From Oscillospiraceae bacterium (GTDB taxonomy: Bacteria > Bacillota > Clostridia > Oscillospirales > Ruminococcaceae), in contig JAFQUQ010000013.1 in assembly GCA_017408395.1 (NCBI GenBank), positions 1 to 57,795 on the forward strand: a DNA stretch of 57,795 bases, written 5' to 3'. This document shows positions 25,868 to 55,354 of the stretch, one piece after another. Position numbers and translations under genes: made by a program. A model generated the notes under the pieces. The model searched no databases. It was not told the DNA's origin and saw nothing but the letters and a program-made list of their open reading frames with translations. How positions within the stretch are numbered: position 1 is the stretch's first letter; every line of letters starts with the position of its first letter.

Positions 25868-27160
25868 ATGGCTGAAATCAAGGCATTCAAAGGTATGCGC
25901 TATAACGTTTCAAAGGGCGGAGACCTGAACTCTCTCGTGTGCCCTCCTTACGACATCATCTCCGATGAACAGCGTACAGGCTACATCGAAAAGAATCCTT
26001 ACAACATTATCCGTCTTGAACTCCCAAAGGGCGACGACAGCCGCTACAAGGAAGCAGGCGACACTCTTGACAGCTGGCTCTCCGACGGCGTTCTCGCACA
26101 GGACGAAAAGGACAGCATCTATGTTTACGAAATGGAATTTACAGCTAACGGCAAGAAAAACAAGCTCAAGGGCTTCGTTTCACTTGTAAAGCTTGTTGAA
26201 TTTTCCGAGGGTATCGTTCTTCCTCACGAAGAAACTCTCTCCAAGGCAAAGGTTGACCGCTTCAATCTTATGAGCGAGACCTTCTGCAACTTCAGCCAGA
26301 TATACTCCCTTTATATGGACGAAAACGGCTCCGTTTACAGCATGATAGACGGCTGTTCACAGGGCACTCCCGATATGAGCATTGCAGACAGCGACGGTAC
26401 TATCCACAGAATGTGGTGCGTAAACGACCCTGATGTTGTTGCAAAGGTTACTGCTGCTTTTGCTGACAAGAAGCTTTACATTGCAGACGGCCACCACCGT
26501 TACGAAACTGCTCTTAACTTCCACAAGCACCTTGTTGCCGAAGGAAAGGCTGAACAGGGCGACCTCAGCGGCTATATCGCAATGATGCTTGTAAATATTG
26601 AAAATGAGGGACTTGTGGTGTTCCCTACTCACAGAATTGTACGTGACCTTGAAAGCTTTGACGCCGAAAAGCTTATCGAAGCTTGTGAGCCTTACTTTGA
26701 AATCAATCAGGCTCCTTCCGAGGAACGTATGAGAGCTGCTCTCAACACACTTTATTTCGACGGCAAAAAGGCTTTCGCTATGTACACAGGCGCAGGCAAA
26801 TGCTACGTTATGACCCTTAAGGACAACAACGCTGTCAAGGAATTCCTCCCTGAAATGTCCGACGCTTACTGCGGTCTTGACGTTTCCGTGCTTCATAACC
26901 TTGTCCTTGAACGTATCTTCGGCATTGACAAGGAAAATATGGCTAATCAGAAAAATCTTACATACACCCGTTCCCTTTCAGAAGCTCTTGAAGCTGTTGA
27001 CGCAGGCGGCGCAGACTGCTCATTTATCCTTAATCCTACAAAGGTTGAGGAAATCCGTGACGTTGCTCTTGCAAACGAAAAGATGCCTCAGAAGTCAACA
27101 TATTTCTATCCAAAGCTTATTACAGGTCTTGTAATGAATAAATTTGCAGAGCGCAAGTAA
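25868..27160 (+). CDS. DUF1015 family protein
   Basis: A 430-aa cytoplasmic protein matching the DUF1015 pattern: CPPYDIISDEQR near residue 26, NPYNIIRLELPKG, LPHEETL near 118 and YIADGHHRYETA near 205. The conserved His/Asp/Arg residues in the last motif suggest an enzyme, but no reaction is established. AGAAGGGATC precedes the ATG. It is followed 13 nt later by cellobiose 2-epimerase, so the two are probably one unit. Confidence 0.85.
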   Translation: MAEIKAFKGMRYNVSKGGDLNSLVCPPYDIISDEQRTGYIEKNPYNIIRLELPKGDDSRYKEAGDTLDSWLSDGVLAQDEKDSIYVYEMEFTANGKKNKLKGFVSLVKLVEFSEGIVLPHEETLSKAKVDRFNLMSETFCNFSQIYSLYMDENGSVYSMIDGCSQGTPDMSIADSDGTIHRMWCVNDPDVVAKVTAAFADKKLYIADGHHRYETALNFHKHLVAEGKAEQGDLSGYIAMMLVNIENEGLVVFPTHRIVRDLESFDAEKLIEACEPYFEINQAPSEERMRAALNTLYFDGKKAFAMYTGAGKCYVMTLKDNNAVKEFLPEMSDAYCGLDVSVLHNLVLERIFGIDKENMANQKNLTYTRSLSEALEAVDAGGADCSFILNPTKVEEIRDVALANEKMPQKSTYFYPKLITGLVMNKFAERK

Positions 27161-27173
27161 AACGGGGGTCTAT

Positions 27174-28349
27174 ATGCTTAATCTTAAAGAAGAATGCAGA
27201 GCCGAGCTTACAGGACGTATAATTCCGTTCTGGAACAAGCTCCGTGACGATGAAAACGGCGGCTTTTACGGCTTTATGAACAACAATCTGGAAGTTGACA
27301 AAAAGGCTGACAAGGGTGTTATCCTCAATTCAAGAATTCTCTGGTTCTACTCCATGGCCTACAAGGCTCTCGGAAGCAGCGATGAAACTCTTCTTGACAA
27401 TGCCCGTCACGCTTACGAATTTCTCCGTGACAACTGTGTGGACAGAGAAAACGGCGGCGTTTACTGGATGATGACATACGACGGCAGAATTTCCGACGGT
27501 ATGAAGCATACATACAATCAGGCGTTTGCAATTTACGCTCTTTCCGCTTATTTCCTTGCGTCAGGCGACGAACAGGCTCTTGAGCTTGCTTTCGAGCTTT
27601 TTGACACGGTAGAGGAAAAATGTACCGACGACATCGCTTATATGGAAGCTTTCTCGGAAGAATGGGAGCTTATCCCTAACGATGCGCTCTCTGAAAACGG
27701 TCTTATGGCTGACAAGACAATGAACACCGTTCTCCACCTCATTGAAGCCTACACCGTGCTTTATGACGCTTCAGGCGATGAAAACGTAAGGGACAGAATG
27801 TTGTTCCTTCTCGATATTTCCAAAAATAAAATCTTCGACAGCGACAACAACAAGCTTCTCGTTTTCTTCGACAGAGAGCTTAACGTTATCGGCGATATTC
27901 ACTCCTACGGTCACGATATTGAAGCTACCTGGCTTTTCGACAGAGCCTGCCAGACAATTGCAGACAAGATGCTCGAAACAGACTGGCGCTTCATTAATCT
28001 GCGTATTTCCGAAAATATCTACAACATCGCATTTGAAAACGGTGCTGTAAACAATGAGCGTGAAAACGACAAAATCGACAAGAAGCGTGTATGGTGGGTT
28101 CAGGCTGAAAGCGTAGTAGGCTTTGTAAACGCTTATGAACAGGGCGGCGACAAGAAATTCCTTGAAGCTGCATCAACGGTTTTTGAGTGGATAAAGAACT
28201 GCCAGACTGACAAGCGTGAAAATTCGGAATGGTGGGGAGAGGTTGACTTCGACGGTAATCCTATGCAGACAGTTGATATGGTAAACCCTTGGAAATGCCC
28301 ATACCACAACGGCAGAATGTGCATAGAAATTCTCAACAGAAAGTTTTAA
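27174..28349 (+). CDS. Cellobiose 2-epimerase (AGE family)
   Basis: A 391-aa (alpha/alpha)6-barrel epimerase that converts cellobiose and related beta-1,4 disaccharides at the reducing end to the mannose form. The sequence follows the R. albus enzyme as I recall it: IIPFWNKLRDDENGGFYG near the start, ILNSRILWFYS with the conserved Arg, HTYNQAFAIYALS, SYGHDIEATWL and CPYHNGRM with catalytic or metal-free active-site His residues. CGGGGG precedes ATG 27174; an upstream in-frame start at 27144 lies in the previous gene. The product 4-O-glucosyl-mannose feeds mannosyl-glucose phosphorolysis, which fits the GH130 gene at 54.3 kb. Confidence 0.92.
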   Translation: MLNLKEECRAELTGRIIPFWNKLRDDENGGFYGFMNNNLEVDKKADKGVILNSRILWFYSMAYKALGSSDETLLDNARHAYEFLRDNCVDRENGGVYWMMTYDGRISDGMKHTYNQAFAIYALSAYFLASGDEQALELAFELFDTVEEKCTDDIAYMEAFSEEWELIPNDALSENGLMADKTMNTVLHLIEAYTVLYDASGDENVRDRMLFLLDISKNKIFDSDNNKLLVFFDRELNVIGDIHSYGHDIEATWLFDRACQTIADKMLETDWRFINLRISENIYNIAFENGAVNNERENDKIDKKRVWWVQAESVVGFVNAYEQGGDKKFLEAASTVFEWIKNCQTDKRENSEWWGEVDFDGNPMQTVDMVNPWKCPYHNGRMCIEILNRKF

Positions 28350-28744: not shown

Positions 28745-29527
28745 TTATCTTCTGCCGCCTCGGCTGCTTCCGCCTGTACGATGGCCGCCGCCTGAGCTTC
28801 GTCCGCCGCCGCCTGAGCTGCTTTCGATTTTTGTCTTGGTTGTAAATTCCCTGATAAATCTGTCGCTTCTGCGGTAGAAGTTTGTTTTGCTTCCGTCAAG
28901 ATAAGCATTTGCGGAAGGCGTGTACTTGAATTTGTAGGAGCTGATTACGGCAACTATCGCAATTATAGCCGCAATAAGTCCGCAAAGGAAGAATGCGCCT
29001 ACGCTGAATATGGACTTTCCGTAAATAAAGCTGCTGGTGTAGTAAGGACCTGCGTCGTAGTACGCTTCAAGGTTGTTGTAGAGCGCTTCAAGACTGCCTA
29101 CGTCGTCGTAGTTCTGATAAAGCTCCTCAACCATATCGTGCATAGCGTCCTTACGGGTCTGGTTGAAGTACTCGGTGTCAACCTCGCCGCAGAGAACGAT
29201 ATGTCTCCAGTCAAGGTCAACAAGGTAAAGTATACCGTCCTCGTTCAAGCTTCCGAACAGCTCTTCATAGTAATTCTCGGCATAGTCAACAGCCGCCATT
29301 CTGTTGCTTTCACCGAAGCCTGTGTTTGTTGTGACAACAGCAATGTTCCAGCCTGTGTGGTTTGCAACCTCTTCCTGACGTGCTTCAAGCTCCTGGAGCT
29401 GGCTTTCTGTGTAAAGACCTGCATCGTCGATAATTCCTGCGGAGTACGCAAAGGATGTTACCGTCATAAGAGAAACTGCCGCCGCAGCTGACAGGACAGC
29501 CGCAAAAAGTTTAAATATCTTCTTCAT
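28745..29527 (-). CDS. TPM-domain exported membrane protein
   Basis: A 260-aa protein with a signal peptide (KKIFKLFAAVLSAAAAVSLMTVTSFAYS). A TPM domain (about 33-155: DDAGLYTESQLQELEARQEEV, NIAVVTTN, DGILYLVDLDWRH) precedes a membrane segment near 178-200. The tail is rich in Gly, Ser and Arg (SSGGGGRSSGGGHRTGGSSRGGRR). TPM proteins are linked to photosystem repair or phosphatase activity in plants; in bacteria the role is unclear. It is the last gene of the SPFH operon and overlaps the upstream stop as TGATG. Confidence 0.85.
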   Translation of the reverse strand: MKKIFKLFAAVLSAAAAVSLMTVTSFAYSAGIIDDAGLYTESQLQELEARQEEVANHTGWNIAVVTTNTGFGESNRMAAVDYAENYYEELFGSLNEDGILYLVDLDWRHIVLCGEVDTEYFNQTRKDAMHDMVEELYQNYDDVGSLEALYNNLEAYYDAGPYYTSSFIYGKSIFSVGAFFLCGLIAAIIAIVAVISSYKFKYTPSANAYLDGSKTNFYRRSDRFIREFTTKTKIESSSGGGGRSSGGGHRTGGSSRGGRR

Positions 29528-30591
29528 CAGAGCACAGCACCTCCGATAAATCCTGCGATTACTCCCACTACGGCAAAAAGACCTGCCGCAAAGCCGAGAA
29601 GCTTAGGCATTGAAACGGGCAGCATACCTACGATTTTGCCTGTCTGACCGTTCATACCGAATAAGTAATCCTTGCCGTTGTATTTATACGTCATAAACCA
29701 TACGGGCAGCATTGTATAATGCCAGTTTGTACGGATTATCTGTGTACGCTTGAAGTTAGGAGTTACGGTTGTGTAGCCGTGAACATCGTTTCTGAGAATA
29801 TCCTGACAGCCCTGCTCAACTCTCGTTCTGATACGGGGCAGTACCTCTGCCTTGTCAACGTCGTACTTATCAGCGTAAAAGCCTGACAGGTATGCCATTG
29901 AGAACGGCACAAACGCCTTGTAATCAAACGGCTCAACCGAGTCCATAAGCTTGTCGTCAAGCTTCTTTGAAGCGTCGGCAGGCACGCCCAGATATTCCAT
30001 TGTAGCGGCTCTTTCGACGTTGTAGATTTTAGTGTTTGTAATGCGGTAATTGCCGCTTGTGCGGGTGTGTATGATTTTAGCCTCGGCGTTCATCTCGGCG
30101 TTTACGGTACAATCCGCAAGCCAGTAGGGCACATACAGACCCGTAATTTTTTCAAGCTGCTGAGCAGAAGTGTAGTCGCTTGGAAGGAACCACTTCTTTT
30201 TACACCAATCCTTGTACATTTCAAGAGCCTGCTCCCTCGTATGTTTAAACGGAATAACAAGCTCAGGACGACATTCGCCCGTAAGTCTTCCCTTTAAAGT
30301 AACAGGGTTGTGGCAATAACAGCAGAAGGTTGCGGCGGTATTTTCGTCACTGATTATTTCAGCGCCGCAGCTGTTGCAGATGTAAAGGTTGGTGTGCTGA
30401 TTGAACTCGTCCTGCAATTCCCGGTCGGGAATGGAATAAGTATCAGCGCTTTCGTCAGCAATTGCGTTGGTTTTTTCGATTTCTTCCTTTGTAAAATCGG
30501 ATAAACAATATTCGCAGACGTGCTTCTGTGCCGCAGGGTCAAACATCAGAGGCGCACCGCAGTTAGGGCATTTAATCTGAACTATGTCCAC
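29527..30591 (-). CDS. TFIIB-type zinc-ribbon membrane protein
   Basis: A 354-aa protein. The N-terminal ribbon is CPNCGAPLMFDPAAQKHVCEYC, and a second one, CNSCGAEIISDENTAATFCCYC, lies near residue 72. A mixed domain with a Trp-rich stretch follows (LPVWFMTYKYNGKDYLFGMNG near 293). One or two C-terminal hydrophobic segments (LLGFAAGLFAVVGVIAGFIGGAVL) place it in the membrane. It sits between the SPFH gene and the TPM gene, a recurrent set in Clostridia. The function is unknown. Confidence 0.8.
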   Translation of the reverse strand: MDIVQIKCPNCGAPLMFDPAAQKHVCEYCLSDFTKEEIEKTNAIADESADTYSIPDRELQDEFNQHTNLYICNSCGAEIISDENTAATFCCYCHNPVTLKGRLTGECRPELVIPFKHTREQALEMYKDWCKKKWFLPSDYTSAQQLEKITGLYVPYWLADCTVNAEMNAEAKIIHTRTSGNYRITNTKIYNVERAATMEYLGVPADASKKLDDKLMDSVEPFDYKAFVPFSMAYLSGFYADKYDVDKAEVLPRIRTRVEQGCQDILRNDVHGYTTVTPNFKRTQIIRTNWHYTMLPVWFMTYKYNGKDYLFGMNGQTGKIVGMLPVSMPKLLGFAAGLFAVVGVIAGFIGGAVL

Positions 30592-30625
30592 TTTTTATCC
30601 CCCTTAAATGTAAATTTAAATTATG

Positions 30626-31897
30626 TTATGGGCGCTTTGAGCCGCAGTTGTTGCAGAAATTACCTGTGTTTTCGCTGCCGCAGGAGCATTTCCAAGAAGC
30701 ATTTGGATTTTTTGCGCCACAGTTATTGCAGAAATTGCCTGTGTTTACATTGCCGCAGGAGCACTGCCACTGACCCTGAGGAGCAGGCTTCTTGTTACCG
30801 CAGTTGTTGCAGAAATTGCCTGTGTTTTCGTTGCCGCAGGAGCACTTCCATGTGTTTGCAGCCTGCTGCTGAGCCGCCTGCATCTGCTGTGCCTGCTGAG
30901 CCTGCATCTGCATCTGCTGTGCGTTGGTCTGGGAAGCGGCGTTCATAAATCCGCCTGCCATATTCATACCCATACCCATTCCCATAAATGCCTGAGCAGC
31001 ACCTGCTGTATTTGAGCCTGCTGCCTTGATGCCTTCGGAAATGTTGCCCTGAACGTAACCTTCACGGATTGCAGCGTCCTTAAGCATTGCACCCTGATTA
31101 CGCATATTGATAAGACGCTTGGACTCATCATCATAAGAAATGCTTGCAATACCTACGGAGCAGATCTCCATACCTCTTGTTTCAGTCCAGTCCTCATCGA
31201 GAACCTTAGCCATATACTTGGAAAGCTCAAGAGATTTTGAGCCGATGTGGCTGATAGAAATACCGTCCACGGACATCTGATTTACAGATGACTGAAGAGC
31301 GCCCAGGAATTCGTCAAGGTACTGTGCGTTGATTTCCTTTATATCGCATCTTGAAGCGCTTCTAGGAATAGCTTCGTTGTAGAATTTAAGCGGGTCGGTA
31401 ATTTTGATGGAATATGTGCCGTGTGCACGAAGGAAAAGTTCAGCGTCGTACTTCTGGTCCCAGTAGCTTATAGCGTTAGGGGTGCCGAACTTGATACCCT
31501 TGATTTCCTGAAGATTAATGTAGTAGACCTTCTGTGAGGAAGACGCCGCACCGCCGTGCTTGAAGCGTTCCCATGTGTCCTTTAAGGTTTCGGAAAGCTC
31601 ACCGTTGAAAAGTGATGGCGCAGAGGACTGTGACACCTCATAGTAGCCCTCCTGTGCACAGAAGTCAACGACCTTGCCGTTATCCATAAGGAGCATCATC
31701 ATATTAGGATAAACGTGGATAACAGAGCCGTTTGAAACGATGTTGCCGTCGCCCTTGTTGCTGCTCTTGCCATTTTTAGTCTTGACACCGCTTACCATAA
31801 CGGTGGTGTCGCTCATTGAATCAGGCTCAATAACCTCAAGCCAGGAATCCTTAAGAACTCCGCTTACGGAATCAACTGCTGCTTTAATAAGACCCAT
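30626..31897 (-). CDS. SPFH-domain protein with C-terminal zinc ribbons
   Basis: A 423-aa protein starting MGLIKAAVDSVSGVLKDSW with GGAGGTAATTACT upstream; the longer frame to 31936 overlaps the preceding small gene. Residues about 35-250 form an SPFH/virion-core (YdjI-like) domain. A Gly/Met/Gln-rich hinge follows (about 280-340, AAQAFMGMGMGMNMAGG and many Gln/Ala). Three near-identical zinc ribbons of the form C-C-G-N-NTGNFCNNCG end the protein. Such proteins can oligomerise at membrane stress sites. It is co-transcribed with a 43-aa membrane peptide, a zinc-ribbon protein and a TPM protein. Confidence 0.85.
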   Translation of the reverse strand: MGLIKAAVDSVSGVLKDSWLEVIEPDSMSDTTVMVSGVKTKNGKSSNKGDGNIVSNGSVIHVYPNMMMLLMDNGKVVDFCAQEGYYEVSQSSAPSLFNGELSETLKDTWERFKHGGAASSSQKVYYINLQEIKGIKFGTPNAISYWDQKYDAELFLRAHGTYSIKITDPLKFYNEAIPRSASRCDIKEINAQYLDEFLGALQSSVNQMSVDGISISHIGSKSLELSKYMAKVLDEDWTETRGMEICSVGIASISYDDESKRLINMRNQGAMLKDAAIREGYVQGNISEGIKAAGSNTAGAAQAFMGMGMGMNMAGGFMNAASQTNAQQMQMQAQQAQQMQAAQQQAANTWKCSCGNENTGNFCNNCGNKKPAPQGQWQCSCGNVNTGNFCNNCGAKNPNASWKCSCGSENTGNFCNNCGSKRP

Positions 31898-31913
31898 AGT
31901 AATTACCTCCGAT

Positions 31914-32045
31914 TTATTTTTTCTTTTTCTTTGCAATAATGCCTGCGATTACAGCTGCGGCAATAATAACCGCTGCTGCGATAAACACTATCAGATAAAC
32001 GTTGGATGAAACGTTTCCTGCTAAAATGCTGCCTGCCATATCCAT
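31914..32045 (-). CDS. 43-aa single-pass membrane peptide
   Basis: This short frame has GAAAGG upstream of its ATG and ends 16 nt before the SPFH gene start. The product MDMAGSILAGNVSSNVYLIVF... has one long Val/Ile/Ala transmembrane helix and a terminal KKKKK. It heads the SPFH-TPM operon, so it may anchor or recruit the SPFH protein. No family is recognised. Confidence 0.65.
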   Translation of the reverse strand: MDMAGSILAGNVSSNVYLIVFIAAAVIIAAAVIAGIIAKKKKK

Positions 32046-32122: not shown

Positions 32123-32157
32123 AAAAATAAAACCGCCTCCCATCAAGGAAGGCGGTA
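32123..32157 (-). terminator. Terminator after surface protein gene A
   Basis: On the minus strand ACCGCCT / AGGCGGT stem followed by TTTATTTTT. Confidence 0.75.
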
Positions 32158-32186
32158 AATTTTGTTTTTATAAGATCAAGTATAAA

Positions 32187-32984
32187 TTACTTTCTCTTGG
32201 AAGCAACTGCAGCAGCACCTGCAACAGCCATTACTGCAACGATAGCAGCAGCTGTTGTGTTGCCTGTAGCAGCAACCGGAGTTGTTGTATCAGCAGCAGG
32301 AGCTTCTTCAACTACTGGAGCTTCTTCAACTACTTCTTCAACTTCCTCTACAACTTCTTCAGCTGTGTCTTCTTCTACAACTTCTTCAGCTGTGTCTTCT
32401 TCTACAACTTCTTCAGCTTCTTCAGCGATTTCTTCTACTTCAGCAGCATCTTCTGTTGCAGCTTCTTCAGCAGGAGCTTCTGTTTCAGCTGGAGCAGCCT
32501 TGCCTTCAAGACCGATAATGGATGTACCGTCGATAGTAATGTCAGAAATCTGCATTGTGCCATCGCCGGAGCCCCACCACCAGCCAACCTGAATAATACC
32601 GTCAGCAACGTCAATAGCAGGAGCTGCGCCGCCTAAATCAAGTTCAGCAGAGAATACACCTGTTGCAGAGTCGAGAGTAACATTTGCACCGTCAAGAGCA
32701 AAGTCAACCTGCTTCCAGCCGTCAACAGATTCGTAACCGAACTGTCCGCCGCCGCCGCACCAGCCGTCGCCAACAGAAGCTGTACCGCTGAGAACTACTG
32801 TACCAACGGAAGAGAAGTCTGCAAGTGCAGAAATAGGCCACTGAACGAGCTTGCCGTCTTCGCTTGCGGAATCAAGCTTTACAGCTTCGATCTTGTTTGC
32901 AGTCATAGCAAATGAGCTTACTGCCATAGTTGTTACAGCAACAGCAGAAGCAACGAGTGTAGCAAAAATTTTCTTAAGATTCAT
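32187..32984 (-). CDS. TGN-tailed surface protein A with acidic repeat stalk
   Basis: A 265-aa exported protein. The signal peptide is MNLKKIFATLVASAVAVTT... ending near SSFA. Residues about 30-160 form a Gly/Trp-rich beta domain (GDGWCGGGGQFGYESVDGW, QVGWWWGSGDG) that looks like a small carbohydrate-binding module. An acidic stalk follows with a 9-residue repeat EVVEEDTAE. The tail is VAATGN, a hydrophobic helix and KRK. ATG 32984 is chosen because GGAGGAAAAAACA precedes it. It starts 47 nt after gene B with no terminator between, so B and A form a pair. Function is inferred as cell-surface binding. Confidence 0.75.
   Translation of the reverse strand: MNLKKIFATLVASAVAVTTMAVSSFAMTANKIEAVKLDSASEDGKLVQWPISALADFSSVGTVVLSGTASVGDGWCGGGGQFGYESVDGWKQVDFALDGANVTLDSATGVFSAELDLGGAAPAIDVADGIIQVGWWWGSGDGTMQISDITIDGTSIIGLEGKAAPAETEAPAEEAATEDAAEVEEIAEEAEEVVEEDTAEEVVEEDTAEEVVEEVEEVVEEAPVVEEAPAADTTTPVAATGNTTAAAIVAVMAVAGAAAVASKRK
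32350..32417 (-). repeat. 27-nt tandem repeat in gene A stalk
   Basis: Two and a half copies of a 27-nt unit encode the EVVEEDTAE stalk. The copies appear identical, so the number of units could vary by slippage. Confidence 0.75.
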
Positions 32985-33031
32985 TGTTTTTTCCTCCAAA
33001 ATATAAATTAAAATGTTATTCTGCAAAGAGA

Positions 33032-33754
33032 TTACTTTCTCTTCTTAGCAGCGATAGCAGCAGCACCTGCAACAGCCATTACACCTACAACGGAAGCAAC
33101 AGCAGCGTTGCCTGTAGCTGTGGATGTTGTTGTAGCGTCAGCAGCAGGAGCCTCTTCAGCAGCAGGAGCTTCAGCAGCGCCAGCGTATGCCTTCTGAGCA
33201 ATTTCATTGCCGTCAGCATCAAAGAACTTGAGGTTGGAAATAGAAACTGTCATGTTGTTGATAGCAGCATGAGAAGACCAGTCTATGAATACGAGTTCAG
33301 ATTCAGCTGTGAGTACTTCTGTTGGGAGAAGGAACTTAACTGTATCTTCGATAGAATATTCTGTGTTAGCCCAGTAAGCGTTGCCTGCATCATCGTAATC
33401 AGGGCTGATCCAGTAACCTGTGGAGTTCTTGCAGCCGAACCATGTGCCGCCGCCTACACCGTTACCAGCTTCTGTGCCTTCAGGAATTGTGTATGTGATT
33501 GTCCAGGAAGCAGACTTTACTGCGTCAGGATTGTCGAGAAGATCGCCTACTACTACTCTGCACTTAGCAGCAGCAGCGGAAGCTGTAGCTGTAAAATCAA
33601 CCTTATCTTCAGATGTAGCAATGATCTTAACTGTGTTTGGGTCGCCGTCAGAGTAAGAAGCGTTTGCCCAGTTTGTAGCTTCAACAGCAACAGACATCAT
33701 TGAAGCTGTAAGTGCAGCAGCTGCTGCGCATGATAAAATTTTCTTCATGTTCAT
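33032..33754 (-). CDS. TGN-tailed surface protein B
   Basis: A 240-aa exported protein. The signal peptide (KKILSCAAAAALTASMMSVAVEA) precedes a beta-rich domain with several aromatic residues (GGGTWFGCKNSTGYWISPDYD). An Ala/Glu/Pro-rich linker leads to STATGNAAVASVVGVMAVAGAA and KKRK. Start is ATG 33754; the TTG frame above overlaps the GGAGG site. Own promoter at 33827-33855. Confidence 0.72.
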   Translation of the reverse strand: MNMKKILSCAAAAALTASMMSVAVEATNWANASYSDGDPNTVKIIATSEDKVDFTATASAAAAKCRVVVGDLLDNPDAVKSASWTITYTIPEGTEAGNGVGGGTWFGCKNSTGYWISPDYDDAGNAYWANTEYSIEDTVKFLLPTEVLTAESELVFIDWSSHAAINNMTVSISNLKFFDADGNEIAQKAYAGAAEAPAAEEAPAADATTTSTATGNAAVASVVGVMAVAGAAAIAAKKRK

Positions 33755-33826
33755 TTTAATTTCCTCCAATTGATAGCGGCTGTATATATATCTTTAAATT
33801 ATTAAATGCCGCCAGTTTCACAATTA

Positions 33827-33855
33827 ATTATATCATTATCCAGTGATTTTCACAA
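33827..33855 (-). promoter_or_regulatory. Promoter of surface genes B-A
   Basis: Minus strand TTGTGA (33855-33850), 17 bp, TATAAT (33832-33827). Confidence 0.65.
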
Positions 33856-33913
33856 CATTAATATTAAATAATTATTTTTGTGTTTTTTTGTTACTTTTAA
33901 CTATGCATCCGCA

Positions 33914-33947
33914 TAAAAAAAGAACGGCACCTTTCGGAGCCGTTCTT
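33914..33947 (-). terminator. Terminator after surface protein gene C
   Basis: AAGAACGGC / GCCGTTCTT stem followed on the minus strand by a T7 run. Confidence 0.85.
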
Positions 33948-33971
33948 GTAAATGTCAGTTTTTAAGAAAAA

Positions 33972-34640
33972 TTACTTTCTCTTTCTGGAAGCAACTGCAG
34001 CAGCACCTGCAACAGCCATTACTGTTACGATAACAGCGGATGTAGCGTTGCCTGTTGTTGCGGAAGTTGTAGCGCCTGTATCAGCAGCAGGAGCAGAATC
34101 AGCAGGGAGACCATTCTTCATGAGTTCGCCGGATTCTTCTTCAGAAACGATCTTGAATTCGCCCTGTGGTGTGCCAGCGGAGAGCTCAGCGTTCTTGATG
34201 ATAACGTCGTTAACCTGGAATGCAAGGCCTGCAGAGCCGTCGCCTTCTTCATCAGCATATGGAACGAAAGCTTCCCATACAGCCTGTGGAACTACGAATT
34301 CGATTGTTGTAACACCGTTAGGAACAACGATGAAGCCGTCGCCCTTAGCAATAGCTGTGTCACTTGTGAGCTGGGATGTGATAGCGTCCCAAGAAGAGCA
34401 GATGTTCATAGGCTTGAGGAGGTAGTTACCGTCGCCAACGAGAGGAGGCTTTCTCTCTACTGTGAGAACAACCTTAACGTCGCCGCCGATTGCTGCGAAT
34501 TCAGACTTTGGAATTGTCTTACTTGCAGACCAGCCACCTGTGTACTCAGAGTCCATTTCGAATGCGAATGCGCTTACTGCCATTGTAGTTACAGCAACAG
34601 CTGCAGCTGCAACAGCTGCTACGATTTTCTTGAAGTTCAT
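33972..34640 (-). CDS. TGN-tailed surface protein C
   Basis: A 222-aa exported protein. After the signal peptide (MNFKKIVAAVAAAAVAVTT...SAFA) comes a beta-rich domain of about 145 residues (GGWSASKTIPKSEFAAIGG, VPNGVTTIEFVVPQAVWEAF). A short Ala/Thr linker leads to SATTGNATSAVIVTVMAVAGAA and RKRK. ATG 34640 has GGAGGAAAAAACA upstream. It is monocistronic, with its own promoter and terminator. Confidence 0.72.
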   Translation of the reverse strand: MNFKKIVAAVAAAAVAVTTMAVSAFAFEMDSEYTGGWSASKTIPKSEFAAIGGDVKVVLTVERKPPLVGDGNYLLKPMNICSSWDAITSQLTSDTAIAKGDGFIVVPNGVTTIEFVVPQAVWEAFVPYADEEGDGSAGLAFQVNDVIIKNAELSAGTPQGEFKIVSEEESGELMKNGLPADSAPAADTGATTSATTGNATSAVIVTVMAVAGAAAVASRKRK

Positions 34641-34706
34641 TGTTTTTTCCTCCATACATAAAAATTTAAAAAGCAGATGTAAATTCAATCACATCTTAGT
34701 GACTTT

Positions 34707-34735
34707 ATTATATCATTTTACAGTTTATCACGCAA
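34707..34735 (-). promoter_or_regulatory. Promoter of surface gene C
   Basis: Minus strand TTGCGT (34735-34730), 17 bp, TATAAT (34712-34707). Confidence 0.65.
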
Positions 34736-34806
34736 GAACAATTTAGCATAATTTTATCTGTACATATTTGTCACATTTATACAACAGATTTAAGAAAACG
34801 TTACCG

Positions 34807-35853
34807 TCATTTTTGCTTTTTACTTAAAACAGCGGTTACGCCTGCACACATCATCAGTGCCGCAATGCCGTTTACAGAAGCATTTCCCGTATTTACGCTG
34901 TCCGTGACCGAGTCGGCGGAAGGCTTATTTGTGTCAGCATCGCCCGAAGGTGTTTTTTCGGTATTATCCGTATTTACAGCTGTATCCTCCGTATCTGCCG
35001 TAGTTTCTTCAACAGCAGGCTTGTCCTCTGTCACAGCAGTAACCGTCTCCGAAACCACTTCTGTTTCAGACACGGCCGTTTCGGAAGCGTCCACCGCAGT
35101 TTCCGCAGCAGAAGTTTCCGCCGTTGACTCAGCAGGCTTTTCCACAGCAACGACAGTTGTTTCAGCAGTCGTTTCGGCAGGCTTTTCAGTTACGGTTTCC
35201 GTTTTGGTATCCTGAACGGAGGTTTCCGTTGTTTTTTCCGTACCTGCGGAAGTTTCCGTCACCTGAGTTTCCACGGCCACCACAGAGGAAATCTCACCGG
35301 AAGTCACGCTTTCTTCGGCAGCAGCGTCCAATCCCGTCACTCTGAACGTTATTTCAAGGGAGCTTATGCCCTCTGTCCAGTCGAGGTTTTCCGTGTAATT
35401 ATATTTGCCGTCCTCCCACGGATTATATATGTAAACCGCCATAGTGTCGTAATAATTCATATCGCAGACGCTTTTGTCCCCCTGAATTTCAACATCATCC
35501 GCCTTTACGCTTATCACAGACAGCTTTGCTTCGGGATAATCCGCAAAAGCCGCTTCGCCCTTCCTGCTTCCCATAGCTTTAAAATCAGTGCCGAGAGCAA
35601 AAAACTGACCGTAGTTTATGGCTTGTTCAAATTCAACAGAAGCCGTATAAACACCGTCGCCTGTTATTTCAGCGTCAACAGCCGACGCTATGCCGCTGTT
35701 GCTTTTGTGGCCGTTGCCCCAGTATTGCACATCCCACGTATCATCAGCCGCACAGACCCACGCCTTCCCTGCCGTCCCTGCATTTGCAGACACAATAACG
35801 ACAGCGGCGGTAAATGCGGCAATCACGGCAGACGCTATGATTTTTTTAAGCAT
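34807..35853 (-). CDS. TGN-tailed surface protein D with long Thr/Glu stalk
   Basis: The largest member (348 aa). A signal peptide ends near SANAG. A beta domain of about 150 residues (WDVQYWGNGHKSNSG, YNYTENLDWTEGISSLEITFRVTG) is paralogous to protein E (WATQWWDDGN...). A low-complexity Thr/Ser/Glu/Val stalk of about 130 residues follows, probably a wall-spanning spacer. The tail is VNTGNASVNG, a hydrophobic helix and KKQK. Two ATGs (35856, 35853) follow GGAGGG; either may be used. Base use in the stalk is less biased than in the neighbours. Confidence 0.72.
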   Translation of the reverse strand: MLKKIIASAVIAAFTAAVVIVSANAGTAGKAWVCAADDTWDVQYWGNGHKSNSGIASAVDAEITGDGVYTASVEFEQAINYGQFFALGTDFKAMGSRKGEAAFADYPEAKLSVISVKADDVEIQGDKSVCDMNYYDTMAVYIYNPWEDGKYNYTENLDWTEGISSLEITFRVTGLDAAAEESVTSGEISSVVAVETQVTETSAGTEKTTETSVQDTKTETVTEKPAETTAETTVVAVEKPAESTAETSAAETAVDASETAVSETEVVSETVTAVTEDKPAVEETTADTEDTAVNTDNTEKTPSGDADTNKPSADSVTDSVNTGNASVNGIAALMMCAGVTAVLSKKQK

Positions 35854-35894
35854 CATCAACCCTCCGATTGTCAGATTTTAACCTAATTATAATT

Positions 35895-35923
35895 ATTATA
35901 TAACATCCTGCCGCAAATTTCTA
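35895..35923 (-). promoter_or_regulatory. Promoter of surface gene D
   Basis: Minus strand TAGAAA (35923-35918), 17 bp, TATAAT (35900-35895). The -35 is not TTGACA-like but resembles those of genes E and F. Confidence 0.45.
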
Positions 35924-35969
35924 TATCCATATCACAAAAATAAATGCACTTTTCTTGTGCATTTACAAT

Positions 35970-36004
35970 AAAAAAACGTCCCGCACTCATTATGCAGGAC
36001 GTTT
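35970..36004 (-). terminator. Terminator after surface protein gene E
   Basis: AAACGTCCTGCA / TGCGGGACGTTT stem then a T-run on the minus strand. Confidence 0.85.
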
Positions 36005-36033
36005 ATATGCTTTATTCAGAAACAGTAATCAGA

Positions 36034-36729
36034 TTACTTTCTCTTTCTGGAAGCGATTGCAGCAGCACCGGCAACTGTCATTACAGCAACGATTGCAGCA
36101 GCAGCTGTGTTACCTGTTGCAGCAGCTGTTGTTTCTTCAACAACAGGAGCTTCTTCTGCTGCAGCTTCTTCTGTTGCAGCACCGCCGCCGAGACCGGAAA
36201 CTGTGAATGTAACTTCGATTGTTGTCCATTCGCCGATAGAAGCGAGGTCGTAAGCTGTTGCGCTCATATCAGTAGCGTCGTTTGCTGTACGAGCATCATC
36301 AGGAAGGGAAGATACCCAGGAGTTGTAGAGGTTAGCTCTTGTAACGATAGCATCGTCAGAAGATGTGTAAGCTGTACCGCTTGGCTGGATTTCAAGACCG
36401 TCAACCTTAACGGAATCGATTGTAAGGATAAGTGTTTCAGCACCGAATGCAACTTCACCGTTTGCAACGCCTACTGCAGCGAATGCGAAGGAGCTTGCAG
36501 GAGCAGCAGCTGTAGCCTTTACTGTGTACTGGCCGTCGCCTGTGATCTTAACTGTTTCAGCAGTTACGTTGTCGTAAGCATTGCCGTCATCCCACCACTG
36601 TGTTGCCCAGTTAGCATCAGAGAACATGATGTAAGCTGTGCCGTCTTCAGAAGCAAAAGCATTGATAGCCATTGCGGATACTGCAACAGCAGCTGCAACT
36701 ACTGCAGCAAAAAACTTTTTGATTTTCAT
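36034..36729 (-). CDS. TGN-tailed surface protein E
   Basis: A 231-aa exported protein. Signal peptide MKIKKFFAAVVAAAVAVSAMAINAFA; beta domain of about 150 residues (YIMFSDANWATQWWDDGN, ITGDGQYTVKATAAA, LTIDSVKVDGLEIQ, WTTIEVTFTVSGLGG) homologous to that of D; short Ala/Glu linker; AAATGNTAAAAIVAVMTVAGAA and RKRK tail. The aromatic patch suggests ligand binding, as in carbohydrate modules. ATG 36729 follows GGAGGAAACAACT. Confidence 0.74.
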   Translation of the reverse strand: MKIKKFFAAVVAAAVAVSAMAINAFASEDGTAYIMFSDANWATQWWDDGNAYDNVTAETVKITGDGQYTVKATAAAPASSFAFAAVGVANGEVAFGAETLILTIDSVKVDGLEIQPSGTAYTSSDDAIVTRANLYNSWVSSLPDDARTANDATDMSATAYDLASIGEWTTIEVTFTVSGLGGGAATEEAAAEEAPVVEETTAAATGNTAAAAIVAVMTVAGAAAIASRKRK

Positions 36730-36784
36730 AGTTGTTTCCTCCAAAATTTTGTTTTTATTTTTCGCTTTAAATTAAGCTGTATTT

Positions 36785-36813
36785 ATTATACAACATCCCA
36801 TTTCAAAAATCTA
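36785..36813 (-). promoter_or_regulatory. Promoter of surface gene E
   Basis: Minus strand TAGATT (36813-36808), 17 bp, TATAAT (36790-36785). Confidence 0.45.
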
Positions 36814-36828
36814 TATCAATATTGCAAA

Positions 36829-36842
36829 AAATAATAACGTTT
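36829..36842 (-). promoter_or_regulatory. cre-like site upstream of gene E
   Basis: Minus strand TGTAAACGTTATTA differs from the CcpA consensus TGWAANCGNTNWCA at one base. It lies just upstream of the -35 region of gene E, where cre sites can activate. Confidence 0.25.
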
Positions 36843-36863
36843 ACATTGTTGTAATTTCACAAT

Positions 36864-36900
36864 AAAAATACACGCCCCGTTTGTCATCGGGACGTGTATG
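36864..36900 (-). terminator. Terminator after surface protein gene F
   Basis: ATACACGTCCCG / CGGGGCGTGTAT stem followed by TTTTTATTG on the minus strand. Confidence 0.85.
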
Positions 36901-36924
36901 TAATGCTTTCAGCTTGTTTAAAAA

Positions 36925-37575
36925 TTACTTTCTCTTTCTGGAAGCGATAGCAGCTGTGCCTGCAACAGCCATTACAGCTGCAACTGCAGCAGCAGTTGTG
37001 TTGCCTGTGGAAGCGGATGTTGTTTCTGCAACAGGAGCTTCTTCAGCAGCAGGAGCGTCAGCGGCAGGAGCGTCGCCGAAGGAAACAGAGAAGTTAACCT
37101 CGAATGTGTTTACAGGTTCGCCGAAGGAGTAGCTGTCGCCTTCTTCAGACATTGGGCAGTCGCCTGCTTCAACAAATGTATCAGCCCAGCCGTTGATCAT
37201 ACAAACGTCGATTACGCCGCTGTCAGGGTTAACGAGTTCGTATTCTGTCTTTGTAGGTGTGAGGGACTTGCCGTTTGCAGTAATGGAATTGATTGTTACA
37301 ATACCGCCCTTGAAAGCTTCAGGAGCTTCTGCACCGTTTACATCCTTGATGTAAAGAGTGATGTAGAGGTTTTCTCCGCCTGCATCGAGAGTAACATTGT
37401 AGTCGCCGCCGTCAGTGCTGATATCGAAAGCGTCGGACTCATAAAGTGTCCAGGATTCGGTATTCTGTGAGTAGAGCTTGCAGCTTACAGTTTCAGCAGC
37501 GAATGTGTTTATAGCCATTGCGGATACTGCAACTGCTGCAGCTGCAACAGCGGCAAAAAACTTTCTGATCTTCAT
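36925..37575 (-). CDS. TGN-tailed surface protein F
   Basis: A 216-aa exported protein. Signal peptide MKIRKFFAAVAAAAVAVSAMAINTFA, nearly that of E; beta domain (SWTLYESDAFDISTDGGDYNV, LYITLYIKDVNG, VNTFEVNFSVSFG); Ala/Pro linker; SASTGNTTAAAVAAVMAVAG and RKRK. The domain is a divergent relative of the D/E type. ATG 37575 follows CGGAGGAATTTTATT. Confidence 0.73.
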   Translation of the reverse strand: MKIRKFFAAVAAAAVAVSAMAINTFAAETVSCKLYSQNTESWTLYESDAFDISTDGGDYNVTLDAGGENLYITLYIKDVNGAEAPEAFKGGIVTINSITANGKSLTPTKTEYELVNPDSGVIDVCMINGWADTFVEAGDCPMSEEGDSYSFGEPVNTFEVNFSVSFGDAPAADAPAAEEAPVAETTSASTGNTTAAAVAAVMAVAGTAAIASRKRK

Positions 37576-37626
37576 AATAAAATTCCTCCGTAATTCAATT
37601 TTGCACATTAAATGTGTCTATCATAA

Positions 37627-37655
37627 ATTATACTGTATTTCTTCGTTAAAATCTA
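37627..37655 (-). promoter_or_regulatory. Promoter of surface gene F
   Basis: Minus strand TAGATT (37655-37650), 17 bp, TATAAT (37632-37627), the same -35 as gene E. Confidence 0.45.
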
Positions 37656-37701
37656 CTGTCTGTTCTACAAATTACGCAGGCAAATATTGTTTAAAATGTA
37701 C

Positions 37702-37732
37702 AAAACCCGCCTGTGTTTTCACACAGACGGGT
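37702..37732 (-). terminator. Terminator after gene G
   Basis: ACCCGTCTGTGT / ACACAGGCGGGT stem followed by TTTTG on the minus strand. Confidence 0.75.
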
Positions 37733-37753
37733 CGTCGTCCGAAAAAATCGGAA

Positions 37754-38071
37754 TTACTTGTTAGCCTTCTTAGCAACAACAGCTGCAGCAGCAAGAGCTA
37801 CAGGAATTACTGCGAGAGCGATAGGAGCGTTGCCTGTGCCTGGGTTTTCAACAACAGGAACATCTTCTACTACTGGTTCATCAACTACATCTTCAACAGG
37901 TTCGTCGATGATTTCATCGTCAACGATTTCGTCGTCAACAACTTCTTCAGTAACTTCATCTTCGATAACGTCTTCGTCAGCTTCAACGCCAGCAGCGGAT
38001 GCTGTCATACCGATAAGTGCAACGGACATAGCGCAAGCTGCGATAGCAGCAAGAATCTTCTTCATTGTCAT
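37754..38071 (-). CDS. Surface stalk protein G with NPGTGN tail
   Basis: A 105-aa exported protein with no globular domain. Signal peptide MKKILAAIAACAMSVALIGMTASA; then about 50 residues of Glu, Asp and Val (VIEDEVTEEVVDDEIVDDEI...). The tail ENPGTGNAP, hydrophobic helix, KKANK resembles a sortase signal of the NPxTG type. It thus shows what the TGN motif of its neighbours may be. GGAGGAATTTATT precedes ATG 38071. Confidence 0.72.
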   Translation of the reverse strand: MTMKKILAAIAACAMSVALIGMTASAAGVEADEDVIEDEVTEEVVDDEIVDDEIIDEPVEDVVDEPVVEDVPVVENPGTGNAPIALAVIPVALAAAAVVAKKANK

Positions 38072-38125: not shown

Positions 38126-38154
38126 ATTATATCACAGTATTTCCGAAATTCAAA
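38126..38154 (-). promoter_or_regulatory. Promoter of gene G
   Basis: Minus strand TTTGAA (38154-38149), 17 bp, TATAAT (38131-38126). Confidence 0.5.
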
Positions 38155-38435: not shown

Positions 38436-38464
38436 TTGACAAACGAAAATTTATATGCTATAAT
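38436..38464 (+). promoter_or_regulatory. Consensus orphan promoter P1
   Basis: TTGACA (38436-38441), 17 bp, TATAAT (38459-38464). No coding frame with a ribosome site follows. The stretch 38155-38435 upstream is AT-rich and I see no gene in it. Confidence 0.75.
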
Positions 38465-38470
38465 ATAGTT

Positions 38471-38640
38471 TAAATTAAAAATTGCAGTTTTGATTTTCTG
38501 CATTTAATTTACACAAAGAAGTTACCATTGTGCCCTGAAATTCTATCTTTTGATTGAAGCGGCAAGATACATTTAACAATTATGTCAATTCAAGTGCTGG
38601 CATTTTGTGCATATATACAAAAACAAAAAAATTAGCCTGA
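38471..38640 (+). ncRNA. Candidate structured RNA from P1
   Basis: The sequence after P1 can form successive hairpins: AAATTAAA-TGCAG / CTGCA-TTTAATTT (about 38470-38513), CACAA / TTGTG and TATCTT / AAGATA. No terminator is seen before the next promoter, so the 3' end is uncertain and the RNA might continue to 38814. It is not recognised as 6S, SRP, tmRNA or RNase P. Confidence 0.4.
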
Positions 38641-38645
38641 AACTG

Positions 38646-38674
38646 TTGACGTACAGCATCTTATGCGTTATAAT
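38646..38674 (+). promoter_or_regulatory. Orphan promoter P2
   Basis: TTGACG (38646-38651), 17 bp, TATAAT (38669-38674). Confidence 0.75.
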
Positions 38675-38680
38675 AATGAT

Positions 38681-38814
38681 GATGTTAGAATTCGTAAAAA
38701 TTCTATTTTAATTTAGTTTAACATCCGTTTTGTTGTCTCCTTTCTTTTGTTCTACACATATTTTTTATTATCTCATCTGATTTTCGCAGGACACCGTTGT
38801 CCTGCATTTTTTTT
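38681..38814 (+). ncRNA. Candidate trans-acting small RNA
   Basis: About 134 nt between promoter P2 and an intrinsic terminator, without an open frame. The 5' part closes with GATGTTA / TAACATC. The middle is an unpaired C/T tract including GTCTCCTTTCTTTT, which is complementary to ribosome binding sites such as GAAAGGAGA. This layout (5' stem, pyrimidine seed, terminator) is typical of sRNAs that block translation. Confidence 0.55.
38786..38814 (+). terminator. Terminator of the candidate sRNA
   Basis: GCAGGACA-CCGT-TGTCCTGC followed by eight Ts after one A. Confidence 0.9.
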
Positions 38815-38844
38815 GCATTTTTTACGATACTATAATAATAGAAA

Positions 38845-38873
38845 TTGACAAATAACTTTGTTTGAGCTATAAT
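38845..38873 (+). promoter_or_regulatory. Consensus promoter of metG
   Basis: TTGACA (38845-38850), 17 bp, TATAAT (38868-38873). The leader is only about 30 nt, too short for a T-box or riboswitch. Confidence 0.8.
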
Positions 38874-54255: not shown

Positions 54256-55293
54256 TCAAACCTGGCTGTTGTGGTCAAGGAAGTCCATAACGTCATCAAC
54301 AGTTGTGAATGCCATAGCTGTGCAGGTATCAGCGCAGCCGTAGTAGATGCAGATTCTGCCTGTGTCAGCGTCAACGAGGTTAGCGCAAGGGAATGTTACT
54401 GCGTCTGTATCACCAACGAGTTCATAGTATTCCTGTGGGCTGAGGAGGTAGGAAGCACCTCTCTTGAGAACCTTCCATGGCTCATCCTTATCGAGGAGAG
54501 CAGCAGAGAAGCTGTAAACGTAGCCGTTGCAGGATGTAAGTACGCCGTGGTAGAAAATGAGCCAGCCGCGATCTGTTTCGATCGGAATAGGACCTGCACC
54601 CATCTTTGTGGATTCCCAGCCCTTGGATGGTCCCATAACGTGTCTGTGCTTGCCCCAGAATGTGAGGTCAGGAGACTGGCTGATGAACATATCACCGAAT
54701 GGTGTATGACCGCTGTCGGAAGGACGGCTCATCATCATGTACATACCGTTGATCTTTCTTGGGAACATTACGCCGTTTCTGTTGAATGGGAGGTAGGAGT
54801 TCTCAAGCTGTGTGAATGTTTCGAAATCTTCTGTAAGAGCGATGCCGATAGTAGGCTTCCAGCCGTAAGCGTTGCACCATGTAACGATGTACTTGTCTTC
54901 GCCTTCGAGCTTGCAAACTCTTGGGTCGTAGCCGTACTGCCACTGAGCAACCTCAGGGTCGAGGTTTTCTGTATTGAAGTGAATTCTTTCTTCGTTGATG
55001 TCCCAGTTGATGCCGTCCTTAGAGAAGCCAACGTGGATTTCCATGTTTCTTTCTCTGTCGTCAACTCTGAAAACGCCTGCAAACTTATAGTCGCCCTTTT
55101 CAAAAGGAACTACTGAGCTGTTGAAAATGGAGTTGGAAGGCTCTCTGTAACCGTTAGCCTTCTTGACCATGATATGATCTCTCTTGATAATTGGGTTTGC
55201 GCTGTAACGCCAGATAATGTCTTTGCATCCCTCAGGCTTGTCCTGCCATGGGATATTTGGAAGTGATGTACCGTTGATAATTTTTACGTTCAT
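54256..55293 (-). CDS. GH130 beta-1,4-mannooligosaccharide phosphorylase
   Basis: A 345-aa five-bladed beta-propeller of family GH130. NSIFNSSVVPFEKGDYKFAGVFRVDD near residue 50 carries a catalytic-site region, YGYDPRVCKLEG the Asp, then WCNAYGWKPTIG, RNGVMFPRKINGMYMMMSRPSDSGHTPFGD, KMGAGPIPIETDRGWLIFYHG. The pattern fits the R. albus RaMP2 type (mannooligosaccharide phosphorylase) better than the mannosyl-glucose RaMP1 type, from memory. It releases mannose-1-phosphate. ATG 55293 follows GAAAGG. It is monocistronic, with strong codon bias. Cellobiose 2-epimerase at 27.2 kb is a pathway partner. Confidence 0.88.
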   Translation of the reverse strand: MNVKIINGTSLPNIPWQDKPEGCKDIIWRYSANPIIKRDHIMVKKANGYREPSNSIFNSSVVPFEKGDYKFAGVFRVDDRERNMEIHVGFSKDGINWDINEERIHFNTENLDPEVAQWQYGYDPRVCKLEGEDKYIVTWCNAYGWKPTIGIALTEDFETFTQLENSYLPFNRNGVMFPRKINGMYMMMSRPSDSGHTPFGDMFISQSPDLTFWGKHRHVMGPSKGWESTKMGAGPIPIETDRGWLIFYHGVLTSCNGYVYSFSAALLDKDEPWKVLKRGASYLLSPQEYYELVGDTDAVTFPCANLVDADTGRICIYYGCADTCTAMAFTTVDDVMDFLDHNSQV

Positions 55294-55354
55294 TAAGAAT
55301 ACCAACCTTTCAATTTTAAATAATTCTCTGAGCCGTCGGACTCACATTGCTCTT

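Follow-up and report, generated by a model that had tools for sequence, protein, structure and literature searches.

A tandem of seven minus-strand genes, all starting with ATG, lies at positions 32187-38071 (about 6 kb) of a 57,795-nt stretch (the window) of contig JAFQUQ010000013.1, from a Ruminococcus-like Oscillospiraceae bacterium. We consider this array, with a probability of roughly 0.57, to be one copy of a recurring gene set for proteins with predicted secretion and predicted wall attachment by class B sortases, the likely role of which is to capture plant polysaccharides on the cell surface. The array recurs in related genomes, its proteins share a C-terminal tail, one of its module types is also found on GH5 proteins, and the codon usage of six of the seven genes is at ribosomal level. 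Little is known of the means by which Gram-positive gut bacteria that degrade fibre but have no cellulosomes keep hold of their substrate; if this reading is true, it identifies a set of surface binders that recurs and is probably highly expressed, adds several new families of binding modules, of which one is already linked to GH5 proteins, and provides a sorting signal that can be tested for a multi-sortase cluster.

The array was first described in a sequence-only reading as seven successive secreted proteins with a common C-terminus, and the open reading frames bear this out. The signal peptides, read by eye, comprise a basic start, a hydrophobic run and AxA; at the other end, TGN is invariant (7/7), with a hydrophobic stretch and then a K/R end after it. 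The first gene, G (37754..38071), encodes 105 residues with a signal-peptide-like start and an ENPGTGN tail, and has no domain but a 53-residue acidic stalk without lysine or arginine. F (36925..37575) has a distant E-type domain, a stalk and a SASTGN tail; E (36034..36729) a predicted beta-sandwich domain, a stalk and an AAATGN tail; and D (34807..35856) an E-type domain, a long Thr/Glu-rich stalk and a SVNTGN tail. C (33972..34640) combines another predicted beta-sandwich domain with an ATTGN tail, B (33032..33754) a separate domain type with a TATGN tail, and A (32187..32984) a further separate type with a long acidic stalk and a VAATGN tail. The proposal of mostly one beta-rich domain per protein thus holds for E and C, the predicted structures of which are beta-rich, and fails for G.

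The grouping of the domains proposed at the outset was recovered: D and E are of one type (BLASTP 35% over 96 residues, 2e-6), F is a distant relative of the E/D group (hhalign probability 97.4), and A, B and C stand apart from E (17.1 or less), some of the hhalign profiles still containing a remnant of the signal peptide. None of the seven proteins matched a Pfam family above cut-off, so that no unrelated enzyme family was found among them, and sequence searches of Pfam, NCBIfam and solved structures matched the domains to no family; they may yet belong to CBM (carbohydrate-binding module) families outside the fold-search listing. A solved-structure match at 0.0036 was discounted, its chain name being like that of a designed protein and only 28 residues being aligned. 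A relative of the A type in locus L045 gave a weak Cbm74 match (E 0.047).

Two results connect the domains with glucans and strengthen the glycan adhesion suggested initially. In 10 of 11 large proteins, the E-type domain stands on the C-terminal side of GH5; judged by sequence, the E type, and only this type, would qualify as a CBM in the sense of a discrete non-catalytic module inside a carbohydrate-active enzyme, no copy on such enzymes having been found for the C type among the 12 genomes with a match or for the B type among 11. The GH5 bearing it is nearest to cellulases/endoglucanases, with beta-1,3-1,4-glucanases and xyloglucanases close behind. The C model resembles, and may share the fold of, the glucan-binding domain of the Bacteroides ovatus mixed-linkage glucan (MLG) surface glycan-binding protein SGBP-B (6e57/6e9b), with 10% identity in the fold alignment. 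Both results count against host or microbial targets (mucin, other bacteria) in place of plant fibre, which we hold to be quite improbable even though the ligand is itself inferred and the titles of four of the 14 named relatives point to animal gut samples (deer or goat).

In class B sortase substrates, an NPxTG-type motif stands ahead of a hydrophobic helix. Among 88 tailed proteins, which were chosen for their TGN tail so that TGN is not itself a counted result, NP precedes xTG in every G protein (15 of 15) and in 0 of the 73 others. The Rumino_NPXTG model (NF033846, cut-off 23.5 bits) gave 14.1-18.2 bits for A, B, C and F and no listed match for D, E and G; in a scan of the genome with the same model, six array genes scored 12.3-20.0 bits, again all below 23.5, and D was not listed. 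The tails are clustered: seven of the ten found in the 71%-complete genome fall within the 6 kb of the array, the other three being on other contigs and one of them reading TGS rather than TGN. They are also mostly kept in orthologues, the TG tail being present in 117 of the 120 listed homologues of C (all TGN) and in 93 of 120 listed for E (69 TGN), although full-length queries were used and the tail contributed to retrieval; 23 of the remaining 27 E homologues have a lipobox pattern.

Four sortases lie within 5 kb on another contig of the window's genome, and likewise in five other genomes of the genus (6/6), with a fifth sortase outside the cluster in one genus genome. Against the class B model TIGR03064, the four reached 4e-35 to 7e-45 (121.2-153.2 bits, cut-off 153.75), and the best sortases of two genomes of the same genus (G001 and G003) exceed the cut-off. 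At least four TIGR03064 matches were present in 11 of 12 family genomes with a C-type gene versus 55 of 185 without, counted by hand on genomes that are mutually related and unequal in completeness, so that a p value for this contrast treats them as more independent than they are. The four tandem genes (L017:2409-7509, contig C42 of G000) are followed by a SpoIID-like gene, recognised by reading its translation, and the third of them encodes 671 residues, including a long extension at the N-terminus and an end rich in Thr and Glu.

The weakest points of sortase-anchored glycan capture are ligand binding and tail cleavage, and several observations weigh against the latter. The lack of NP in 73 of 73 non-G tails, the Rumino_NPXTG scores under the cut-off, and a hydrophobic stretch with K/R that would serve equally in a membrane would all suit a plain C-terminal anchor with a positive stop, the proteins remaining uncut in the membrane. 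We nevertheless find such an anchor rather unlikely: in the listed C and E homologues that keep TG, it stands directly before the helix, the same arrays are headed by G with its canonical NPxTG, and four clustered sortases are present in all six genomes of the genus.

Related arrays were found within the genus and by a scan of named genomes, which gave 14 loci with titles naming Ruminococcus, Clostridia or Oscillospiraceae (13 metagenome-assembled, one uncultured). Array genes occur in 18 loci and a lone E-type gene in two more (L071 and L072); L073 and L075 are the same contigs as G005 C58 and G003 C7 and were counted once, and L070 was excluded. Where G is visible (15 loci), it always comes first and is followed by an E- or F-type gene, and the array genes share a strand. 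Each of these 15 loci has a C-type gene (ten were retrieved by C), eight have B, five have the FED type, which is related to B (hhalign 92.7), and eight have A or an A-like type, the copy in L047 being cut by the contig end. Presence of C in L074-L086, retrieved with a C-type query, is no finding, nor is presence of E in the genus arrays, which were first retrieved with E. The order of B and C differs between arrays; a contig end marks the start of those in L069 and L076, and no G was found with the C-E pair of L079. Within the 197 family genomes sampled, the C type was detected in 12 and the E type in 40 (E 1e-10 or better), and the B type in 11 and the A type in 17 (1e-5 or better); the family searches (A3 and A4) used full-length profiles including signal and tail, and weak matches may be to the tail only.

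In the window's genus, the array has metG on one side and an SPFH gene on the other wherever contigs are long enough; by reading of translations, it follows an rpoA gene in L080 and L082 and has different neighbours elsewhere, from which the gene set appears to travel or be maintained as a unit. A 424-residue array gene (L083:5155-6444) has A-type and C-type domains fused, which indicates module exchange between array members.

An abundant set of surface proteins could also form a structural coat or fibre layer, S-layer-like or pilus-like, in which beta-sandwiches would serve protein-protein contacts. We judge this unlikely, as the modules are unlike from gene to gene and the E-type domain is also present on GH5 and lipobox proteins. 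The 15 G stalks contain no lysine or arginine and 10-31 acidic residues in 45-65, and in all 15 G proteins no lysine occurs from the end of the signal peptide to TG; G therefore has no side chain that could form the isopeptide bonds of a sortase-built pilus, and it was dropped as a candidate pilin. Elsewhere in the window's genome (L022:4575-6398, contig C25 of G000), a 607-residue secreted-looking protein carries a G-like acidic stalk and an NPGTGN tail; it has a codon adaptation of 0.83 and no Pfam match, and a relative directly adjoins the array in L045.

An exact TATAAT starts 35-78 nt upstream of the ATG in six of the seven genes (expected by chance about 0.13 times per 60-nt window), as at G (38126..38153, TTGAAT-16-TATAAT), D (35895..35923, TAGAAA-17-TATAAT) and B (33827..33855, TTGTGA-17-TATAAT), all minus strand; no promoter of its own was found for A. 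Terminator-like hairpins on the same strand follow G (37695..37745, z -5.2 against shuffles), F (36860..36905, z -5.9), E (35968..36010, z -5.9), C (33910..33965, z -4.4) and A (32125..32162, z -4.7), those of F, E and A being detected by a simple hairpin scan too and those of G and C by folding only; folding against shuffles gave no hairpin after D (z -0.08) or B (z -1.30). From promoters and hairpins, the transcription units are G, F, E, D-C and B-A, with an additional promoter for C, and B is probably co-transcribed with A because no terminator follows it. A, B, C, E, F and G have codon adaptation values of 0.77-0.88, compared with 0.63-0.81 for 15 ribosomal genes of the same genome, so that six of the seven genes would be highly expressed. 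D, at 0.26, is among the lowest in the window though it retains the family domain and tail, and its expression is possibly low or conditional; measured against their own arrays, adaptation is likewise poor for the D-type genes of L080 (0.33) and L082 (0.34) and not for that of L048 (0.66).

The sequence-only reading had counted the same five terminators and six promoters and concluded on a repertoire rather than one operon, which is right as regards these signals; of its two suggestions, glycan adhesion gains support and a phase-variable coat does not. Phase or antigenic variation, with one member expressed at a time, would fit several similar genes with their own promoters, the 60-81% likeness of signal-peptide and tail DNA between array genes, the poor codon adaptation of D alone, and tails of different domain types that resemble one another more within a genome (0.67) than across genomes (0.60; reached by 0 of 500 label shuffles). 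This tail likeness could stem from gene conversion or equally from tails adapting to the local sortase, and tails are also alike by type between genomes, more weakly (7 of 500 shuffles reach that level). The strong codon bias of six genes suggests that all are usually expressed, the positions of G and E are kept across arrays even though B/C order varies, and no inverted repeats flank promoters in the array region, where a search for repeats of at least 22 nt with a 12-base seed found only two pairs, both imperfect (22-27 nt), lying within coding sequence and separated by more than 1.6 kb. Conserved positions and the absence of such repeats led us to reject phase variation as the principal explanation, and we give it very little credence.

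The proteins are predicted to be exported by Sec and cut at the T-G bond of xTGN, one of the four clustered sortases acting as the enzyme. Each stalk may extend one binding module away from the wall, and different modules could grip different parts of beta-glucans or other hemicelluloses, the captured glycan perhaps being passed to GH5 proteins bearing the same module. G, which has a stalk but no module, would act as a spacer for the other proteins or render the surface strongly acidic. The mode of working would be like that of Bacteroidetes surface glycan-binding proteins, with sortase anchoring replacing lipid anchoring. The modules are small, directly expressible, and their glycan binding can be assayed directly.

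Compared with those Bacteroidetes proteins, such as B. ovatus SGBP-B, the array has a sortase-type tail rather than a lipid anchor and does not adjoin transporter and enzyme genes (no SusC/SusD-type transporter genes lie beside it), and the fold alignment retains little identity. The Rumino_NPXTG family has the same C-terminal layout, to which A, B, C and F are weak matches; the array differs in its scores below cut-off and in having NP only in G. In the cellulosome, components carry dockerin or cohesin, for which the seven proteins gave no Pfam match with E up to 1.

In architecture, the closest protein is RBR_09240 of Ruminococcus bromii, a surface protein and relative of Sas20 domain 1, which, as far as the available part of its source describes it, likewise has a predicted glycan-binding beta-sandwich, a low-complexity linker and a sortase motif without dockerin or cohesin, and differs in being a single gene with a starch-type CBM26-like module with helices, where the array has other modules, a tandem arrangement and xTGN tails (PMC9112005). 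CBM37 of Ruminococcus albus is similar, by description only, in being a lineage-restricted binding module on enzymes and non-catalytic proteins that was shown at the cell surface; it differs in fastening enzymes to the cell wall itself, and the accessible portion of that source mentions no tandem array with sortase tails (PMC4081043). In the open-access library searched, we found no description of the array, no paper combining NPXTG, Ruminococcus and sortase, and nothing for class B sortase with Ruminococc and gut, related topics giving reviews or other systems. What is new is that the genes form an array, that the modules are of types not seen before and that the tail reads xTGN. More tentatively, and with the balance somewhat against it, the array might represent a Gram-positive glycan-capture system not recognised before, with three to four new CBM families, a lysine-free polyanionic stalk protein and a dedicated four-sortase cluster reading xTGN, mobile but cohesive and among the most abundant protein layers of the cell.

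Elsewhere, the window encodes close relatives of beta-1,4-mannooligosaccharide phosphorylase (5ayd, 1e-170; GH130, 54256-55305, codon adaptation 0.78, at ribosomal level) and of cellobiose 2-epimerase (3vw5, 9e-161; 27144-28349). This pair is known from mannan breakdown in R. albus, and a lifestyle on plant beta-glucans and mannans would be a fair inference from the gene content. The array is flanked by metG, identified by reading, and by SPFH, zinc-ribbon and TPM-domain genes (28745-31936), which come after the array throughout the window's genus and also in L086. No tRNA (ARAGORN) and no Rfam match at gathering scores were found in the window. Upstream of metG, on the plus strand (38436-38873), there are two perfect tandem TTGACA-17-TATAAT sites and a near-perfect one at 38646-38674. 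Beyond the array, a 43-codon minus-strand frame (31914-32045), hydrophobic and with a lysine-rich end, possibly encodes a small membrane protein.
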